Assembly (NCBI GenBank): GCA_025058345.1
Contig: JANXEN010000001.1
Span: 223,358 to 287,357, forward strand
Length of the DNA stretch: 64,000 bases
Source of the DNA: Sulfolobales archaeon
GTDB lineage: Archaea; Thermoproteota; Thermoprotei_A; Sulfolobales; NBVN01
Direction of reading: 5' to 3'
Positions 34,596 through 45,408 of this stretch are shown here, in pieces; positions within the stretch are counted from its first letter, which is position 1, and each line of letters starts with the position of its first letter. The position numbers and the translations under genes are program-made. The notes under the pieces were generated by a model that was given only the letters and a program-made list of their open reading frames with translations, did not search any database and was not told the DNA's origin.

Positions 34596-34901
34596 CTAAG
34601 ATGCAGACTCTACAACCTGTTTCTCTATATCTGAATCATTAATTTTTATTAAGGCTTCTTCCTCCTTCTCTAAAGCGTTTAATAATTTATAACCTAACCC
34701 ACTCAGTCTATAAACCCTGTAATTACCTTTAGAATTCACTAGTTCCACTAAGCTGAGGGCTTCTAGAATGTGGAATGTTGCTAGTACCTCATATCTAGGT
34801 AGTCCAGTAGCGGCTACGACGTCGCCAGGAGTTACAACCCTATCCTTCATGCTTGAAAGTATGTGCTTAAGTCTAAGTCTGAATTCACTCAGCCTAACCA
34901 C
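34596..34901 (-). CDS. Winged-helix transcriptional regulator
   Basis: VVTPGDVVAATGLPRYEVLATFHILEALSLVELV. Confidence 0.7.
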   Translation of the reverse strand: MVRLSEFRLRLKHILSSMKDRVVTPGDVVAATGLPRYEVLATFHILEALSLVELVNSKGNYRVYRLSGLGYKLLNALEKEEEALIKINDSDIEKQVVESAS

Positions 34902-35006
34902 CGTTAATAAAGGTTATCATCACACATACCTAAAAAGGTTACACCTAATCAGCGATGCGGTTACAACACTTTATAAGTTGAGTAAAAGTAATGGGTGAGT
35001 TATTAA

Positions 35007-35468
35007 GTGGTAAGTAAGTATTATAGGTCCTACATAAAGCGTGGTGTAAGTGATTTAATAATAGTTCTAGCGTTGATATCTGTAGCAATTCCCGTAACTC
35101 TCGCAGTTCAGCATTGGCTAACTTCCCAAGTAGGTAGGACCACCACATACTCAGTCACACCTAAAATCACCGCTAACCTAATATCAGCTAACTATAGAAA
35201 TGGGAGCTTCACCGCCGTCATAGAAGTCATTAATAAAGGGGTCAACGACTTAAGCTTAAGTAACGTAAGTGCTACTGCCTTATTCGCGGATGGTTCTAAT
35301 ACAACAACTACTTTATCTCTAATCTTCGGTGAACAAGTGCTTAAACCTAATGAGGAAGCAACAATGCTCTTAACGATTCCTAACGTTAAATCTAAGGCTA
35401 TCCTGATAGTGATGGAGTTTAAGGATGTGACAGGTAGTAAATTACCGGTAGAGCTAGTTTTGAATTAG
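35007..35468 (+). CDS. Archaeal type IV pilin-like protein
   Basis: Class III signal peptide IKRG|VSDLIIVLALISVAIPVTLAV then sequon-rich beta region. Confidence 0.8.
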   Translation: MVSKYYRSYIKRGVSDLIIVLALISVAIPVTLAVQHWLTSQVGRTTTYSVTPKITANLISANYRNGSFTAVIEVINKGVNDLSLSNVSATALFADGSNTTTTLSLIFGEQVLKPNEEATMLLTIPNVKSKAILIVMEFKDVTGSKLPVELVLN

Positions 35469-35499
35469 TGATTCCTAAACCATAAACTAATTTTTTGAG

Positions 35500-36828
35500 G
35501 TGATGTTTTTGAACGATTTTGAAATCATTGACGAGTATAACGTTGGTATAGCTAACGTTAAAATAGTTAGATACTCCAGTAATTCCTATCAGTACTTAAT
35601 AGAGGAGATCTTAGGTAAAGATGTTGAGGGAATGATCTCAAGAAACGTTGACTTTATATTAAATTCAATACCGCCCGGAAGCGACTTAGACGAACTTACG
35701 TTATCTAGAATCATCTCAGATGTTTTAAAAGTAAGTGGCGACGACTCCGTCAAATTCATATATGCCTTGAGGAAGGAACTAAAATATAAGAAGTTTCAGG
35801 TATTGATAGATGATCCGTACATAGAAGACATATCGGTCGCGGGAGTAGGCCCTGTATGGGTTAGGCATAGTAAGGTTTTGAAGATAGACCCTGACGCTGA
35901 CTACATACCGACGAATGTGGTATTAAGTGACTTCGACGAAGTTCTGAAGTACATCAACTTATTCGCTGAGAAGGCAAATAAAATAATATCTAAGTCTCTA
36001 CCGATATTAGACGCAAATCTACCGGATGCTGATGGCGGACATAGAATTCATCTAGTGCTTCATGAAGTAAGCTTAGGGAGGCCTGAAATAACCATTAGGA
36101 AGAAGAGAGGTTACAGTACGTTAAGTATTAAATCTCTAATCGATGATGAAGTCTTACCGGATTCAGTAGCTAAATATTTAAACATGGTTATTAAGTCTAG
36201 GGGGAGTATAGTTATTGTCGGTCCCCCAGGGTCAGGTAAAACGACTCTTCTAAGGGCATTGCTCTACGAATTCATCCCCCCCACTTGGAAGATAGTGATA
36301 ATAGAGGATACTCCTGAGATAGATCCTCTCCCTCAAAGTAATTGGATTAGATACATAGTCCCTACAACTTTAGCGGCTGCGAACCACTTAGATCAGTTCG
36401 CCTTATCTAAAGCCGCGTTAAGATCCTCAGTTAATAAGTACATAGTGGTTGGTGAAACTAGGGGTGCTGAAGCTCAAGTATTAGTGCAGGCTATGAACAT
36501 GGGTTTAGGAGGTTTAACTACCTTCCATGGAGGGAACGTAAAGGAGGCAATAATAAGGCTTTCAGGACCTCCTATAGGTCTAAGCAACCATCAAATCAGC
36601 ATGTTCTGGTCGTTCGTCACCGTTAATTTCGTATTTAGCGGTAAATCCGTCAAAAGAGCTGTGGTAAGTGTTGACGAACCAATATACGATGCTGAGACAG
36701 ACAACATAATACTCAATAACATATATTCCTTCGGGGACTGTTCCTCATTCGATGAATTAATTAAGAGAAGCATCAGGCTTAGAGGTGTTAGCTACGTACT
36801 TCAACATCAGTTAAGTTACACCGAGTAG
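35500..36828 (+). CDS. Type II/IV secretion (GspE/VirB11-family) ATPase
   Basis: IVGPPGSGKTTLLRALL (Walker A), IIEDTPEID, VVGETRGAEAQVLVQAMNMGLGGLTTFHG. Confidence 0.95.
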   Translation: MMFLNDFEIIDEYNVGIANVKIVRYSSNSYQYLIEEILGKDVEGMISRNVDFILNSIPPGSDLDELTLSRIISDVLKVSGDDSVKFIYALRKELKYKKFQVLIDDPYIEDISVAGVGPVWVRHSKVLKIDPDADYIPTNVVLSDFDEVLKYINLFAEKANKIISKSLPILDANLPDADGGHRIHLVLHEVSLGRPEITIRKKRGYSTLSIKSLIDDEVLPDSVAKYLNMVIKSRGSIVIVGPPGSGKTTLLRALLYEFIPPTWKIVIIEDTPEIDPLPQSNWIRYIVPTTLAAANHLDQFALSKAALRSSVNKYIVVGETRGAEAQVLVQAMNMGLGGLTTFHGGNVKEAIIRLSGPPIGLSNHQISMFWSFVTVNFVFSGKSVKRAVVSVDEPIYDAETDNIILNNIYSFGDCSSFDELIKRSIRLRGVSYVLQHQLSYTE

Positions 36829-36836
36829 ATGTTTTT

Positions 36837-38324
36837 ATGATTTCGCTTTTACATAGATATGTAGATGAGTTACAAGTACTTAGGGTTAAGGCAGGCCTTA
36901 CTGCAGTAGGTAGGGATGAATTAATTAAGTTGATAGTGAAGGATTCCTTAATAGTGCTGACTTTAATTGCAGTCGTATTTCTAGGTGTCAGTGCTTTCAA
37001 TTACCATAATCATCAATTAACTTATTGGTTTATTACAGCGTTAACCATAATGCCGATCCTAATACCCTACTTAAGGTATAAGCTGTTGATAAGACGTCGA
37101 AGTAAGATGCTTGAAAATGAGTTTACGTTCTTCATAATATCTGAGGCTTCAACACTTACGGACTACACTGAATTACTTAACGATATATGTGAGTTGAGGG
37201 GGTGGGAGTTAGTTTTCCCGACCTTAACTACGGAAGGTCTACGGCTAAAGGTATATAGGAAGTTCCTCACCTTATTTGAGACCATAAATCACTACATCAA
37301 GTACGTGCCATCAGAGCTTATTTCTAGATTGTTAAGTGATTATATGCTCGCACTATCAAGAGGTATAGTAAGCGCCTGGATTACCCACACATCGTCAGAG
37401 TTAATTCATAATTTAAGGTCTGATACTAAAGCGTTAATTAGGCTTAGAACCGCAACAGTTCTAGTTATCGGTATATTAGTGAGTTACTTACCCGCATTAC
37501 TTTTCTCCCTCTCAGTCATTACAGGTGATAAGGAACTAACTTCAGCACTTATACTAACGCCTGCAGTAGTCGTAGGCTCTATGTTAGTGCTTCCGCGTAA
37601 TACCTTACACCTCACTCTTTACTTTAAACTAGGCTTGATTAGGAAGTCGTTCATCATAGCCTCCTACACATTGATGGTCATCCTACTATATAGCACCTTA
37701 TCAGACTTTACTTCAGTCAGATATTTGACGCTGTTAGTAGCGTCAGTGACGTCGATAAATGGTGTTTTAGGTCTCATTAAGTTTTGCGAAGCAATAAATG
37801 AGGTTTATGAAGTACCTAAGGTAACGTATATGTTTGCTGAGACACCTTACATCTTAGTAAGTCCTGTAAAGGCTTTGAGGGACGTACTAAGCGGGTGTAA
37901 GTCTAGAAGTTTTAGAGCTTTAGGTGCTAGGCTGGACTTAAACAACTACACTTCCATGGCATCATACCTTAATTCATGGATTGGGAGATACACATACTAC
38001 ATAATAAGCAAGTCGTTGATTAACGGTTCCCTAAGTAAGGAGCAACTATTGAGTTTAAGAGTCCTAACTATGGATATGCTAGAGGATTTTAAGCAATACC
38101 TCGTAAGTGCCTTACCACTCATCATTATATCATTGATGGTACCATGGCTTATGATTTCGATGACCTCACTTGCAGGGGTGAATTTAATGGAGTATGGATT
38201 TGCCATCTACTTAGTAACCATAACTTACTCAGTATATGTAGACTACGTTGTTTTCAACACCCATTACATTACGTTAATTTCAGGCATTACGCTTCTTTTC
38301 CTAGGCTTTATTTGGGTGATTTAA
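36837..38324 (+). CDS. TadC/FlaJ-type pilus platform membrane protein
   Basis: Polytopic 495-aa protein right after the secretion ATPase; TM blocks separated by a cytoplasmic helical domain. Confidence 0.8.
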   Translation: MISLLHRYVDELQVLRVKAGLTAVGRDELIKLIVKDSLIVLTLIAVVFLGVSAFNYHNHQLTYWFITALTIMPILIPYLRYKLLIRRRSKMLENEFTFFIISEASTLTDYTELLNDICELRGWELVFPTLTTEGLRLKVYRKFLTLFETINHYIKYVPSELISRLLSDYMLALSRGIVSAWITHTSSELIHNLRSDTKALIRLRTATVLVIGILVSYLPALLFSLSVITGDKELTSALILTPAVVVGSMLVLPRNTLHLTLYFKLGLIRKSFIIASYTLMVILLYSTLSDFTSVRYLTLLVASVTSINGVLGLIKFCEAINEVYEVPKVTYMFAETPYILVSPVKALRDVLSGCKSRSFRALGARLDLNNYTSMASYLNSWIGRYTYYIISKSLINGSLSKEQLLSLRVLTMDMLEDFKQYLVSALPLIIISLMVPWLMISMTSLAGVNLMEYGFAIYLVTITYSVYVDYVVFNTHYITLISGITLLFLGFIWVI

Positions 38325-40733
38325 TTGAAACTTCCTAAGATGATTAGCAAGGTAGAACTTAATAATGAATTAAGGTCAGCTAAATTCAAGGACGTAATCA
38401 ATAAGTGGATCTTAATAAAGAGCCTCCCTCTAGGAAAGGTCATAATTAAACCAACAGTTAGCACCTTTAACGAAACGCCCAGCTTAATCATCGATGAAGA
38501 CTTGACGATTAGCGTAGATGGTTTGTGGGTCATTAGAAATGAGAACGGTTCTAAAGTATATTTACGCGATGGAAGTGAGTTAAGTTTTTACTGCAGCACA
38601 TATGCATTAAGTAGTGAGTCATTACTTAATCTTTGTAGAGATAGCATCAAGTTATTAGACCTCAGTACCAATAACGAGGAAGTCATACTAAGTGGATGTC
38701 AAGACGTTAGAGTAGATTTCATAGATAACTCAATTGCATTACTGCACGGAAATGGTAGGAATTACTTAATACTCCCTCAAATGAGAAATACCGTACTAGA
38801 AATTCAGGACCTCCACCATGCTGAATCCCGAACAACTGTCCTATTAGTATTTAAACATAAGAGAAAATACTATGCGTCGATAGCCTTCAAGCATCTAGGT
38901 TTAATCAATACATACGAGTTAGATAAATGTGCTTCAGTAAAGGAATTGAAGGTTGGTGATGGTTTAGGGGTAGTAAAATGCCGCGACAGCAATTATCTAG
39001 TGTCATTTAACGGTGTATTTAAAATTCCATTCATTGCTGAACCGATAGCACACATAGGCCATGAATACATACTGTATGACGATACTTTCAGCATCTTAAT
39101 TAGATTCGACGGTAGGAACTTCAATCAGCTACTGATACGTTCTAAACCTAAAGTCGTTGGAAAGCTAAGTACCGGGGAATTAATAATCATTGTAAACAAT
39201 AATCCCTACATAATTACCGATAACGTTTGGAAAATCCTAACTGGGTCGAAGGTGCTGTACGGCGTTGCCGATGATGAATACATAATTCTGAGAGGTTTAA
39301 AATCTCTAGAAATTTATAAATCAACCACACACATATCATCATACAGGCCGCTTGAATGCACTTTAATTAATAAGAACTTGATATGTCTATATGGGAGTGA
39401 TGCGTTAATATATGACCTTAGCGAACTCTACGAAGCTGATATAGTAGTTAAACATGGTAATTTAAGCACTACAGGTTTCCCAATAATGTCTATAATCCCT
39501 TGGTACGTGAATTCACATCTATCTGTTAGGGGTCCAGTAACCTTATTACCTAACCGAGATGGAGATGTAAAGGACTTGAAGTCTTTCACCATTAAACCTT
39601 TAGTTCTTGGTAAGGAGATAACGCTTAAGGTAGTACATGATTTAATACTGACCCAGATCGTCAAGGAATTAAAAATTAAAACAGAAAGAGTAGAAGTCAA
39701 AGAACTTACCATAGATGAGGTTAAACACAGCTTAAATGGCTTTATAGATGGTGGCGATGATAACACGTTAATAAGTATGCATCTAAATGTATTTAACCCC
39801 ACTCCTGAGGACATTCCACTAACAATTAAATACGCTAGCGGTGAGGGGAATGGAACCACAATTAAGAGCCTTCACCAAATCCTCAGACCTGGAGTTAACG
39901 ACTTAAACATCACTACTGCCTTGAGGATCACTACTAATTCGTTGCAGGTTTCTACGGAGTATACATGGTTCAATAAGGTTGAACAACTTGCTATGATTGC
40001 ATTAGACCTCAGTAAGTATTCAATAGAGGATCCAATCATCGACATAAGTTATGAGGTTAAGCAACTAAGTAACTGCGAGTCAAGGATAATTGCAACTCCG
40101 ACCTACTTACATGGCTTAGAAATACCTATATATCTAACAGTTTCATGCTTAGATGGTAAAGTATATAACGGCATTAATGAGGTCACTTTAAACGAATGTT
40201 TATTACCTGCTATTATTAAATACAGCTATAAGTACGATATTTATGAGTGGAGGAAGTACCACATAATTAGAGACAGACCGCTGGTTAAGGTTGATATAAC
40301 CCACGTCAATGATTATGATGTAGGAGTATATGAGAAAATTAAATGTGTTGAAGGCTTCTCACTTAAGGAGGTAGGCTTAGACCTTAAGGTTCCCCATCCA
40401 GTCAGCAGGTTAAGCGTCGAACCATTTATTAATAACGGTGTTAAGTTAGGGATATCATTTGATTTGCATGCTGAAGGGGTTATTTATGCGTTAGTTGGAG
40501 ATAAGCTAGCTTCGTTAAGAGGTAGCAAGGGCTTCTTGGAGTTAGAAGTTGATGACATCATTACCAGAAATTTGAAGGTGTTGGTTCTTAGTGGAGGTAT
40601 TAAGGAATTGTACTTCTTAGATAATTTAGCCCTCATTAAAAAGTATGTTGAATTAGGTGTTAATGCTGCAACACTTCTTAAGGGTAAGGTATCAATTAGG
40701 GAAAACTATGGGGAACAGCTTGGAGCTCCTTAA
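38325..40733 (+). CDS. 802-aa protein of unknown function (propeller-like N-terminal half)
   Basis: Overlapping/abutting genes on both sides; repeated beta-rich segments; no TM evident. Confidence 0.75.
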   Translation: MKLPKMISKVELNNELRSAKFKDVINKWILIKSLPLGKVIIKPTVSTFNETPSLIIDEDLTISVDGLWVIRNENGSKVYLRDGSELSFYCSTYALSSESLLNLCRDSIKLLDLSTNNEEVILSGCQDVRVDFIDNSIALLHGNGRNYLILPQMRNTVLEIQDLHHAESRTTVLLVFKHKRKYYASIAFKHLGLINTYELDKCASVKELKVGDGLGVVKCRDSNYLVSFNGVFKIPFIAEPIAHIGHEYILYDDTFSILIRFDGRNFNQLLIRSKPKVVGKLSTGELIIIVNNNPYIITDNVWKILTGSKVLYGVADDEYIILRGLKSLEIYKSTTHISSYRPLECTLINKNLICLYGSDALIYDLSELYEADIVVKHGNLSTTGFPIMSIIPWYVNSHLSVRGPVTLLPNRDGDVKDLKSFTIKPLVLGKEITLKVVHDLILTQIVKELKIKTERVEVKELTIDEVKHSLNGFIDGGDDNTLISMHLNVFNPTPEDIPLTIKYASGEGNGTTIKSLHQILRPGVNDLNITTALRITTNSLQVSTEYTWFNKVEQLAMIALDLSKYSIEDPIIDISYEVKQLSNCESRIIATPTYLHGLEIPIYLTVSCLDGKVYNGINEVTLNECLLPAIIKYSYKYDIYEWRKYHIIRDRPLVKVDITHVNDYDVGVYEKIKCVEGFSLKEVGLDLKVPHPVSRLSVEPFINNGVKLGISFDLHAEGVIYALVGDKLASLRGSKGFLELEVDDIITRNLKVLVLSGGIKELYFLDNLALIKKYVELGVNAATLLKGKVSIRENYGEQLGAP

Positions 40734-42438
40734 ACTAGATGATGTTAAGGTGTTTGATGATGGTTTAATTATATTTAGGAAATCAAGTAAAGAGGTATGC
40801 AGTAAGAAGATAATTAAAGTTAATAACATAGTAACCTCTATAAACGACTTAAGTGAACAGGAAGTTCTTAAATACTTGAAAACCTACTTTAATTCCCTCA
40901 ATTTAGGTTTCCCTATAGAGGTTAGAACCATATTTAAACCCTTAGATAAGGAGAAGGTGATATCTGAGATAAATAGAAAGATCCAAAACCTTTTAATAAC
41001 CATTGATGTTAATCCCTCTAACGTAAAGGCTAAGACTGATCTCGATAGACTGACAAAGTTTAAGGATAAAATCTTGAAGCATAACATACAGCCCTACGAC
41101 GTCCTCGCCTACTACGTCGTTGAGGCCTGCAGCAATTCTGAAGAAAATGCGGTCAAATTAGTTAATTCTAGGACATCACTCCTTACTAAGACCCTTGAGT
41201 CATTAGGAATTATGGCTAGTGAGTTAAGAGGAATTGAGGGGAGGATCCTACTTCAAATGTTTTTTCGAGGTTATACCTACGGACTACATGGTTTAATTAC
41301 TAAACTCCTTAATTGGAAATACTTCTTCAGAAAGGCGTCGACTACATTAACGGTATTCAACCCTCATATAATAACCTCACGAACAAGGTTTGACTTAAGA
41401 AGTTCAGGGGTCTACTTAGGGATTAACGTACTTACCTCGGAGGGTGTTTACTGGAATATTGAAGGAGGGTTAAATCCCCATGTCTTAGTTATAGGTCCTT
41501 CAGGTATAGGTAAGACTGAAACCCTAATTACGATGCTTATAAGGGTTTGCAGTACTTACTCAACTAAAGTATTCGTGGTGGACATCAAAAACGAGTATAG
41601 AGAGAGGTTATTTAAAAGAGGTTATAGAGCTAAGGTAATAAACTTAGGTGTTGATGTAGGTTTAGGAGTAGGCCAAGTTATTAAATTAGTTCCTAAGACC
41701 TTCAGAGCGACATATCTAACGGAAGTTATTAGCGATTCGATGCTGTTTAGAGAGGATAAAGAACTTACAGCAACTCTCTATAGGGTCTTAAGCGATTCAT
41801 TCGAATTCCTTGACGAAAACCTCAGTAATTTCTGGGGGGTAATCAAAGATGTAAGCATGTCTATCGATAACGATTACCTGCAATACAAATTAATGCGGAT
41901 GCTAAATGTTATGGAAGCCTTAGACCGAGGTAAGCCCTTAATCACTGCAATAAATGAGCCTGAATCAATAACTGTAGTAAATCTCTCCAACATCTCCGTA
42001 TTAGGGGTTGATTACTTAAATCTATCAATGTCTATCTTCTTTAATACCCTTCAACTACTTTACATGAGCAACGTGAGTGAAGGTCATATACCTAAGGTAC
42101 AGTTAGTGGTAGATGAGGCGTGGCAATTCCTACTAAGTAAGGCTCAAGTACTCCTTAAACTCCTTAAACTGGGGAGGGGTTATGGGGTGTCAGTAGCGTT
42201 AGCTACTCAGAGCCTATATGATTTAGGAGATTTAAGTAAGGAATATGTTGAGAATGCCGGTCTGCTCATTGCCTTACCATCACCTGACACGCTGTATTGG
42301 AGGGAACTTTCAAAGTATATGAGGATATCATATGATGAGGTTCGAGAATACTCATTAGCGTTAAGCAAAGGGGATGCGTTAATACGTATATTACCTGATC
42401 CTAGGCCAATTCCAGTTAAGCTAGACCATGAAGTGTGA
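40708..42438 (+). CDS. VirB4/HerA-type ATPase
   Basis: HVLVIGPSGIGKTETLITMLIR (Walker A), VQLVVDEAWQFL (Walker B), VSVALATQSLYDL; VirB4-like N-terminal region; ATG at 40708 preferred. Confidence 0.88.
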   Translation: MGNSLELLKLDDVKVFDDGLIIFRKSSKEVCSKKIIKVNNIVTSINDLSEQEVLKYLKTYFNSLNLGFPIEVRTIFKPLDKEKVISEINRKIQNLLITIDVNPSNVKAKTDLDRLTKFKDKILKHNIQPYDVLAYYVVEACSNSEENAVKLVNSRTSLLTKTLESLGIMASELRGIEGRILLQMFFRGYTYGLHGLITKLLNWKYFFRKASTTLTVFNPHIITSRTRFDLRSSGVYLGINVLTSEGVYWNIEGGLNPHVLVIGPSGIGKTETLITMLIRVCSTYSTKVFVVDIKNEYRERLFKRGYRAKVINLGVDVGLGVGQVIKLVPKTFRATYLTEVISDSMLFREDKELTATLYRVLSDSFEFLDENLSNFWGVIKDVSMSIDNDYLQYKLMRMLNVMEALDRGKPLITAINEPESITVVNLSNISVLGVDYLNLSMSIFFNTLQLLYMSNVSEGHIPKVQLVVDEAWQFLLSKAQVLLKLLKLGRGYGVSVALATQSLYDLGDLSKEYVENAGLLIALPSPDTLYWRELSKYMRISYDEVREYSLALSKGDALIRILPDPRPIPVKLDHEV

Positions 42439-42601
42439 CAACATCGTAATCCTACATAAACCCAAGCCGGTATTGACTTAAAGGGTATTTAAATGATGCA
42501 TTACGTTATCAATGACTAACAACTTAATAAGCACCGCATTAGAAAACATGTTTTCAGCCATAAATATTTAATACGGTTTCACCCATTAAGAGTTAATATG
42601 A

Positions 42602-43378
42602 GTGACCTTATTGACCCTAAAGATAGTGGTGCTGATCGCATCAGTTAATGCACTACTTACTACTGCATATACGGTGCTGTACCTTAATCTAAGCTTAAGT
42701 TCTTACGTAGCAGTAACTGCTGCCTTCCTATCAACCCTTTTATCGAACCTCTTAGGTAAGTTTAACATACGTGTCGGTAATTTGAAGCTTAGCAGCGAAT
42801 TAAGGAAAGCCAGTATAATTAAGTTAAGTAATGACTACCTAGTGCAATCTTTAAGGTTTAAGGCTCTTCAAAATATTGTTGTTGAATTAAATTTAGGGGG
42901 TGTAGTAATGCCCCTGATAATATCTATGTTAATACTTACCCATATATCAACGTACTATGGAGTAGTTCCGTTATTAACTTCATTACTCCTCATAATCGCA
43001 TCTACTTTAATCATAAATAGGGTTTCGGTCGTTATTAAAGGCTTAGGGCTTGCGGTCCCAGTCATAGTAGTCTCAACAGTTACTTCGTTGTTAAGTTTGT
43101 TGGTTACTGTTAGCACCGCACAGTGGGTAGGTTTAGGGATTCACTACTCTTATCTAGTGGCTTATACTTCTACACTCCTGGGGGTTGATTTAATGAACAT
43201 AAGTAAGATATCCTTCTACGACGCTCGAAGATTGATAATCGGGGGTTTAAAGGTCTACGACGCTCTATCTATAGTGCCTGCAGCATCAACAGTAATTACA
43301 TACTTAATTACTACAGCTCTCTACACTTACTTAAACGCTAAGCCTATAAGTCATGTATGTTTATTCCTAACCGCTTAG
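42602..43378 (+). CDS. Polytopic membrane protein, DUF1614-like
   Basis: About seven hydrophobic segments; AYTSTLLGVDLMN...IIGGLKVYDALSIVPAAS resembles DUF1614. Confidence 0.7.
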   Translation: MTLLTLKIVVLIASVNALLTTAYTVLYLNLSLSSYVAVTAAFLSTLLSNLLGKFNIRVGNLKLSSELRKASIIKLSNDYLVQSLRFKALQNIVVELNLGGVVMPLIISMLILTHISTYYGVVPLLTSLLLIIASTLIINRVSVVIKGLGLAVPVIVVSTVTSLLSLLVTVSTAQWVGLGIHYSYLVAYTSTLLGVDLMNISKISFYDARRLIIGGLKVYDALSIVPAASTVITYLITTALYTYLNAKPISHVCLFLTA

Positions 43379-43972: not shown

Positions 43973-44479
43973 ATGGACTTGAAATGGGTGATTAAGTTGT
44001 CTAAGAAAGTTGAGTACATCGACGAAGTCGATAAGTCAATCCTTAAACTCCTCCTCATAAACGGTAGAGCACCTTACAGAAAGATCGCTGAGGAGTTAAA
44101 CTTAAGTGAGTCAACAATCTACTTAAGGATTAGAAAATTGAGTAGATTAGGTATTTTAAAAGGATTCACCATCAACATCGACTTAAGTAAGTTGAGCTTC
44201 ATTATAGTTGCCTTCATCCTTTTGAAGGTGTCTCCCAAGAATTACGAAGAGAGTTTAAGGCACATAGCAAATTATCCCGGAGTAGTTGAAGCTTACGAGG
44301 TTTCGGGAGAGCATCAGGTGTTGATTAAGGCTGTTGCTCCAGACAATAAGGAGTTAGCAAAACTTGTTGATGGGTTAGGTAACGTAGGTGGTTTGCTAGA
44401 AGTTAAGGTGTTGTACGTTCTGAGAACGTTACGCACTCCCTATGAGGTAGTTGAAATACTATCGCAAACCTCAACTTAA
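43973..44479 (+). CDS. Lrp/AsnC-family transcriptional regulator
   Basis: EVDKSILKLLLINGRAPYRKIAEELNLSESTIYLRIRKLSRLGILKGF plus RAM-like domain. Confidence 0.93.
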   Translation: MDLKWVIKLSKKVEYIDEVDKSILKLLLINGRAPYRKIAEELNLSESTIYLRIRKLSRLGILKGFTINIDLSKLSFIIVAFILLKVSPKNYEESLRHIANYPGVVEAYEVSGEHQVLIKAVAPDNKELAKLVDGLGNVGGLLEVKVLYVLRTLRTPYEVVEILSQTST

Positions 44480-44517
44480 TCACCGCAACACCTACCATGA
44501 CTACTTAATGCAGGAAC

Positions 44518-45408
44518 TCAATTTTTAAGTAACTTAATTATGTAGTCCGCAATCTTCTCGCTAGGGTTGATGCCGGTAGCTGACATGAATCCAGACCACT
44601 GAGGAGCTGCATTAACTTCGAAGATTACGAAGCCGCCGTCGGTTTCGCCAATGTCAACACCTGCATAATGAAGTTTTAAGGTATTAACAGCCTTCAACGA
44701 CATATTAACTAACTCCTCACTCAGTCTCTCTATCTTCTCAGCCCGTGCCCCTTGAGCGATATTTGTCTTCCAACTACCGTCTGGCGCATATCTATAATAG
44801 CCACCTAAGACCTCATCCCCAACAACGAATACTCTGATATCCCTACCAGGTTTAGGTATGTATTTCTGTATGTAGACGGGTTGGCCATGAATTAACCATG
44901 TCTTAGCTATGGTGAAGACTAAGTCAGGGTCTGAAGTCCTTACAGCCCCGTACCCCATGCTACCCATCATGGGTTTTATCACTACATCTCCCCACTTCCT
45001 ACATATATCAACAGCTGTGAAAACTTCCTCAACGACAGCTGTAGGGGGGACATTAACACCTGCAGCTTTAAGAGCTAATATAGATGCGTATTTATCTCGG
45101 GCCTTCAGCATAGACTCTATAGGGTTAATTATTAAGGTTCCAGAAAGTTCGAGCTGCCTAATAATGTCTGCACGTCTGAAGACCTGCTCTAAGGTTGCTA
45201 TAAAGCCTAAACTCCTTATTAATAATGAATCCATGAAATCGCTGACCTCACTTCCATACATCACCTTAATTCCCTGCTCATCTATTACTGAAGCCAACTT
45301 CGAAATTCTTACGTAGAAACTTTCTACACCTCTCTTCATAAATGCAAGCATTAATTGTCTAGAACTTAGTGTTGGGACAGGTGAATCGTGTATTATACCT
45401 ACCCTCAC
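44518..45408 (-). CDS. RimK-family ATP-grasp ligase, probably MptN (H4MPT:glutamate ligase)
   Basis: ATP-grasp motifs VVIKPMMGSMGYGAVR, YIQKYIPKPGRDIRVFVVGDEV, FEVNAAPQWSG; next to methanopterin genes. Confidence 0.85.
   Translation of the reverse strand: MRVGIIHDSPVPTLSSRQLMLAFMKRGVESFYVRISKLASVIDEQGIKVMYGSEVSDFMDSLLIRSLGFIATLEQVFRRADIIRQLELSGTLIINPIESMLKARDKYASILALKAAGVNVPPTAVVEEVFTAVDICRKWGDVVIKPMMGSMGYGAVRTSDPDLVFTIAKTWLIHGQPVYIQKYIPKPGRDIRVFVVGDEVLGGYYRYAPDGSWKTNIAQGARAEKIERLSEELVNMSLKAVNTLKLHYAGVDIGETDGGFVIFEVNAAPQWSGFMSATGINPSEKIADYIIKLLKN

Follow-up and report, generated by a model that had tools for sequence, protein, structure and literature searches.

In this analysis we consider five co-directional genes at positions 35007-42438 (forward strand) of a 64,000-nucleotide stretch of DNA from a Sulfolobales archaeon, the whole of which is called the window here. 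The genes encode a type IV pilin, a GspE-type ATPase, a TadC/FlaJ-type platform, an 802-aa protein that we call X, and a CedB-type ATPase. The operon is a chromosomal pilus-plus-conjugation-motor cluster, uniting what the Sulfolobaceae keep as ups and ced. Based on the evidence given below, we consider it likely that this is a chromosomal DNA-exchange operon, where the contact would be made by the pilus, the DNA passage by CedB, CedA and CedA1, and the coupling between them by X as a member of the UpsX family. Contig C11, which carries the window, is part of an assembly of 1.36 Mb in 54 contigs that is 83% complete. The window is placed in the order that presumably holds the Sulfolobaceae (f11), the Ignisphaeraceae (f2), the Fervidicoccaceae (f8) and the Desulfurococcaceae (f9), where f1 denotes the window's own family, whose members are heat-loving, g-numbers (g6, g7, g10, etc.) denote genera and L-numbers denote loci. 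The five genes are as follows.

35007..35468, forward strand: type IV pilin with class III signal peptide, predicted cleavage KRG|VSDLI after residue 13.
35500..36828, forward strand: GspE/ArlI-type pilus assembly ATPase, Walker A GPPGSGKT (Pfam T2SSE, E 1.6e-20; NCBIfam ArlI/FlaI, E 4e-60).
36837..38324, forward strand: TadC/FlaJ-type membrane platform, 495 aa, about 8 hydrophobic segments (hydropathy; homologous gene at the same position in relatives).
38325..40733, forward strand: UpsX-family protein X, with no transmembrane segment or signal peptide, predicted all-beta plus a C-terminal helix (profile searches; AlphaFold2).
40708..42438, forward strand: CedB-type DNA-pump ATPase of the VirB4/HerA superfamily, Walker A GPSGIGKT (NF041017, E 1.2e-83; CedB clade).

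It is noted that a first-pass annotation had described a run of six genes here. Its pilin with the KRG|VSDLI site, its GspE-type ATPase, its TadC/FlaJ-type platform and its VirB4/HerA-type ATPase, for which the best family is CedB, are all borne out, and so is the extent of the first five genes, while the sixth gene falls outside the cluster, as discussed below. For the TadC-type protein a Pfam search gave no match. The X gene begins directly after the TadC stop codon, and the cedB gene, which probably starts at 40708, as its homologues do, and not at 40657, overlaps the 3' end of the X gene by 26 bp. Nearly all relatives keep this cleavage site of the pilin, in the form [KR]G|[VIL]S[DE]L, and a prepilin peptidase A24 is encoded elsewhere in the genome (C11:39509).

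The gene order was followed by using the CedB protein as the query against 60 relatives and inspecting the flanks of the matches, which gave 20 f1 loci; the relatives' genomes are partly incomplete and the sample is non-exhaustive. The order pilin-gspE-tadC-X-cedB is present in 18 of the 18 f1 loci with full context (L047, L051 and L081, which are cut by contig ends, stand outside the 18), with a spacing of -65 to +11 bp between consecutive genes after gspE and with X and cedB overlapping in most loci. In family f4 (L066, L067, L070) the order is the same, with one gene for an N-domain and one for the ATPase where f1 has a single cedB, and genus g52 of f2 shows TadC-X-split cedB at a contig edge (L200). 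The order recurs wherever the contigs permit in the CedB-bearing genera of f1, which is more than chance, and the neighbours, which the first-pass annotation had allowed might not be conserved together, stay together from genus to genus and outside f1 as well. In f1 genus g10, CedB and CedA are absent, and gspE, tadC and X stand instead with VirB4, VirD4-like, VirB6-like and VirB2-like genes.

Two side observations concern these genes. The split CedB takes the form of two adjacent genes, an N-domain of ~190-210 aa and an ATPase of ~360-400 aa (L066, L067, L070, L200, L077, L078; families f4 and f2). The gspE genes of L048 and L058-L063 (genera g6 and g7) have an intein-like insert of ~400-450 aa at GGL|C...THN|TTFHG, whereas the window's gene has no insert at this site.

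The synteny bears on the view that the cluster is a remnant or live integrative conjugative element (ICE) and not a domesticated operon. Thaumarchaeal ICEs hold VirB4, VirD4, VirB6, TadC, FlaI and pilins together (PMC6563490), and the sister loci in g10, f8 and f9 resemble them. By contrast, the gene order of the cluster is the same in all 18 loci, many of which share the same flanking genes (winged-helix, DUF123, SSB and PqqD-like); no VirD4-type coupling ATPase or integrase is present among the open reading frames beside the cluster, attachment sites not having been searched for; and CedA1 and CedA have a locus of their own. We regard the mobile element as very improbable.

We next consider X, which had been taken for an orphan and which profile comparisons identify instead as a homologue of UpsX. 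In 147 genomes of the order, a Sulfolobaceae UpsX query matched the X gene of f4 with E 2.8e-4. In whole-genome searches a profile made from the f1 X proteins alone matched the Sulfolobaceae UpsX with E ~1e-7, and hidden Markov models iterated from both sides united the f1, f2, f4 and VirB4-linked X with UpsX, while reporting 0 decoys among ~1,000 shuffled or reversed sequences. The hhalign comparison of X with UpsX gives a probability of 98.3 over 653 columns, and of 97.7 in a second run, where the controls give 0.3% (reversed UpsX), 0.0% (TadC) and 0.1% (CedB). UpsX against a two-sequence f4 profile alone gives a weak match (probability 41), the homology being resolved by the larger profiles. 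In the AlphaFold2 model (predicted local distance difference test, pLDDT, 86.9) X is all-beta from residue 2, propeller-like and then immunoglobulin (Ig)/fibronectin type III (FN3)-like, with one C-terminal helix, and the model of UpsX (pLDDT 88.6) has the same layout, so that on these predictions, compared by layout and not by superposition, the two proteins appear to share a fold layout. Foldseek searches of X and UpsX versus the PDB returned generic propeller, Ig and FN3 matches with low TM-scores and no functional lead. A sample of 398 genomes from the phylum yielded members of the X/UpsX family in this order alone. Ignisphaera-type genomes have a protein of 757-813 aa before the split CedB, without pilus genes (L075:7422-9842, L077:6930-9371, L078:7825-10098); these proteins were rejected as X, having no detectable relation to UpsX though they stand in X's place.

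The surroundings of X are as follows. X adjoins CedB in f1, f2 and f4, and in f1 genus g10, f2, f8 and f9 it shares loci with ATPases of the VirB4 or VirD4 type. The exceptions are F. fontis (name inferred), where the pilus genes and X are ~37 kb apart, and L254/L255, which have the pilus genes and X with no motor in the stretch read. In the Sulfolobaceae loci L205 and L206, UpsX is intact, UpsE is short and diverged and upsF, upsA and upsB are absent, which makes these loci a natural test case for UpsX acting independently of a pilus. It was reported that cells deleted for upsX have normal pili and aggregate normally but transfer less DNA, and that UpsX partly relocates to the membrane after UV (PMC3892339). 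From the position of X beside motors, the retention of UpsX without pilus genes and these published data, we predict that X is a partner of CedB or VirB4. UpsX would then belong on the motor side, an interaction of UpsX with CedB being our prediction, and the operon gives the first strong hint of the role of UpsX. In several families, loci L116, L121, L256, L202, L251 and L252 combine type IV pilus genes, a UpsX-family X and VirB4/VirB6/VirB2/VirD4-type genes; such pilus, X and VirB4-type loci possibly represent a general archaeal pilus-conjugation module.

As for the motor, the window ATPase is placed in the CedB clade, with 28 CedB rows on one side of a branch having support 100/98. The clade takes in the Sulfolobaceae CedB and the CedB genes adjoining CedA1-CedA in other families, whereas the genome's own HerA and CedD-like ATPase, as well as VirB4 and VirD4, lie outside it. 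The match to NF041017 (281.7 bits) extends over residues 49-590 on model positions 74-587 of 590 and is the sole CedB-grade match in the genome. The same genome encodes CedA1 and CedA together (C11:203400-204288), the former with 122.9 bits, above the curated cut-off of 100, and the latter with E 2e-47, under its cut-off, and also a CedD-like ATPase (E 1.4e-24). The first-pass annotation had itself raised the possibility that the ATPase groups with the HerA-NurA repair helicases; such a helicase would stand beside a pilus by chance. HerA and CedB do belong to one ATPase superfamily, but the genome's HerA sits in a nurA-herA-mre11-rad50 operon (L167), the tree splits HerA from CedB and the synteny is conserved; this identity is rejected and its probability is negligible. 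A motor of the Ted/VirB4 clade is also rejected, the window ATPase lying outside VirB4 in the tree.

The pilus has another affinity. In a tree of 60 GspE sequences, the operon GspEs of f1 and f4 are in one clade with the GspEs of the VirB4-linked loci, with a support of 100 by the Shimodaira-Hasegawa-like approximate likelihood ratio test (SH-aLRT), while UpsE forms a separate group (99), as do other pilus ATPases. Joining UpsE with the operon GspEs is rejected by the approximately unbiased (AU) test at p = 0.012, with the long branches of the tree being a caveat on this exclusion; the test does not reject a clade made up of the f1 and f4 GspEs only (p 0.117). The window GspE is rejected as a UpsE orthologue, with the same caveat, and the pilus is, as judged from its assembly ATPase, of a conjugation-linked type and not a Ups pilus. 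The earlier label of an Ups-like locus holds for the link via UpsX and the SSO5209-family winged-helix gene described below, and fails for the GspE and for the pilins, with one pilin instead of UpsA plus UpsB. This conflict, between the shared UpsX and winged-helix genes and a GspE outside UpsE, could be explained by a replacement of the pilus genes at an old shared locus or by fast evolution of UpsE. Since the GspE and TadC families are generic and the DNA role of the pilus is a proposed one, the cluster might be an adhesion or secretion pilus with a HerA-superfamily ATPase recruited for work on proteins or the pilus and not on DNA. We consider this unlikely, as the ATPase is a CedB in particular, the genome also encodes CedA and CedA1, and the sister loci carry VirB4, VirB6 and VirB2.

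Around the cluster the following features are present.

34596..34901, reverse strand: small winged-helix protein of the SSO5209 family, candidate regulator, divergent to the cluster (NCBIfam NF053658, E 6e-25, under the cut-off).
34963..34979, forward strand: probable B recognition element (BRE)/TATA promoter ACAACACTTTATAAGTT, ~28 nt upstream of the pilin start, its position inferred from the sequence.
42602..43378, forward strand: DUF1614 membrane protein, outside the cluster (Pfam PF07758, E 1.8e-18).

A promoter-like AACnCTTTaTAA element is seen at a comparable position in many relatives. The SSO5209 winged-helix gene has a single copy in the window's genome and is part of the neighbourhood conserved around the cluster; it is near the cluster in 16 f1 loci, adjoins the split-CedB loci of f2 (Ignisphaera-type) and, of 16 ups loci in the Sulfolobaceae, flanks 11, making its product a candidate common regulator of the X/CedB operon, the Ignisphaera-type CedB loci and most ups loci. 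The DUF1614 gene, which is the sixth, 7-TM gene of the run described earlier, is separated from cedB by a gap of 163 bp and adjoins cedB only in L046 and L047, the two closest relatives examined, so that the cluster ends at 42438. DUF1614 was also rejected as the CedA counterpart, being a Pfam family of its own and not conserved with the cluster. An Lrp-type regulator and a LysX-like ligase lie a few kb after cedB both in the window (43973-45408) and in the Sulfolobaceae loci L068, L069 and L071; these surroundings are perhaps an old common neighbourhood of cedB, or chance.

Now we come to how the operon might function. Ups pili confer species-specific aggregation, while CedA, CedA1 and CedB import DNA (PMC9905601, PMC11868833), cedB being required for the import (PMC11868833). 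By carrying over these roles, the type IV pilus would bring and hold the partner cells together, and CedB, with CedA and CedA1, would power the DNA passage across the membrane. As a soluble scaffold of all-beta structure, UpsX would either link the motor with the base of the pilus or recruit the motor to the membrane. One transcript would supply the contact pilus, the pump and the adaptor, with the channel and the conduit coming from the cedA1-cedA locus. The ups and ced systems of the Sulfolobaceae would share with this operon an origin in conjugation loci, in which a type IV pilus, X and a VirB4-type motor were encoded together.

Four points weigh against this DNA-exchange operon. The window CedB is below the NCBIfam equivalog cut-off (282 versus 700 bits), a cut-off passed by only 1 of 14 control genomes, and thus the ATPase is filed as a CedB homologue and not as an NCBIfam equivalog. 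CedA and CedA1 are 54 kb from the operon, and with the channel and the pilin encoded there the operon alone is not the full machine. As the window GspE is not a UpsE orthologue, the role of the Ups pilus is carried over by analogy only. Finally, inspection of the sequence upstream of the pilin TATA box showed no A(N)TTTC UV motif; the motif is also missing from upsE of S. solfataricus and from ced promoters, and its absence here is not decisive.

A narrower form of the DNA-exchange operon, without physical coupling and thus with a confidence overlapping that given above, is co-regulation only: two physically separate machines on a shared transcript, by which contact and import are switched on together, with X belonging to either. 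Ups and Ced of the Sulfolobaceae serve one process without being required in the same cell (PMC9905601), CedA and CedA1 are outside the operon and the winged-helix gene is divergent to it, all of which speak for co-regulation. By contrast, X keeps with the motor even in loci that have no pilus genes or have those of a different clade, and the overlap of X with cedB in most loci suggests a physical partnership of X with the motor. We give co-regulation only somewhat less than an even chance. At the other extreme, the first-pass annotation had suggested a single machine for pilus and DNA. Both motor types are indeed in one conserved operon, and they may belong to a single machine. In its full form UpsX would dock CedB on the pilus platform and the pilus would position the DNA channel, ups and ced would be split products of such a pilus-plus-VirB4-type machine and UpsX would be a general pilus-motor adaptor, a picture that we put forward tentatively and hold to be rather doubtful.

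It is noted that Ups (contact) and Ced (DNA import) have so far been treated as separate systems at separate loci, that Ups has been regarded as restricted to the Sulfolobaceae, and UpsX as having no relatives or known role. The pilus-UpsX-CedB operon and the pilus-X-VirB4 loci tie Ups and Ced together, extend UpsX beyond the Sulfolobaceae and assign it to the motor side, and whether UpsX binds CedB becomes a testable question in a genetically tractable model. Moreover, the loci suggest a route from a conjugation machine to a domesticated chromosomal system of exchange for DNA repair. That pilus genes and VirB4-type motors can be in one locus is already known from the thaumarchaeal ICEs (PMC6563490). 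In the literature searched, with many subscription papers outside its scope, we found no report of ups and cedB in one operon or of UpsX relatives outside the Sulfolobaceae; the family-wide chromosomal operon of pilus, UpsX and CedB and the UpsX relatives beyond the Sulfolobaceae are apparently new.

We finally compare the window operon with the known systems. Like the Sulfolobaceae upsX-upsE-upsF-upsA-upsB (PMC3892339), it has a UpsX-family protein, a GspE ATPase, a TadC/FlaJ protein and a class III pilin in one operon, with the same winged-helix family beside it as beside the 11 of 16 ups loci. The order is however A-E-F-X-CedB instead of X-E-F-A-B, with one pilin upstream instead of UpsA plus UpsB downstream of upsF, the GspE does not belong to the UpsE clade (AU p 0.012), cedB is included and the EndoIII, ParB and GT neighbours are absent. 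With Ced (CedA, CedA1, CedA2, CedB; CedD, CedE; PMC9905601, PMC11868833) the window shares the CedB-clade ATPase, and its genome has CedA1, CedA and a CedD-like ATPase; cedB is in a pilus operon here, whereas it adjoins cedA1-cedA in L074, L076 and L080 and is alone in the Sulfolobaceae, and the window CedB is without the N-terminal hydrophobic (transmembrane) segment(s) that the Sulfolobaceae CedB has. The Ted system of the Thermoproteales (TedA, TedB, TedC) is likewise a conjugation-type DNA-exchange machine on the chromosome, but its motor is of the VirB4/TedB type and the genes described at the ted loci are those for HerA, ParA and Rad50, with neither a type IV pilus module nor UpsX among them. 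In the thaumarchaeal ICEs (PMC6563490), too, a single locus holds a VirB4-type motor as well as TadC, a FlaI ATPase and pilins, but these elements are mobile, with VirD4, VirB6, integrase and replication modules, have no CedB, and a UpsX-family protein is not reported for them. The VirB4-linked pilus loci (L116, L121 plus L256, L202, L251, L252) share with the window the sister GspE clade, the X family and the pilins, with VirB4, VirB6, VirB2 and VirD4-type genes replacing the window's CedB and the distant CedA and CedA1.

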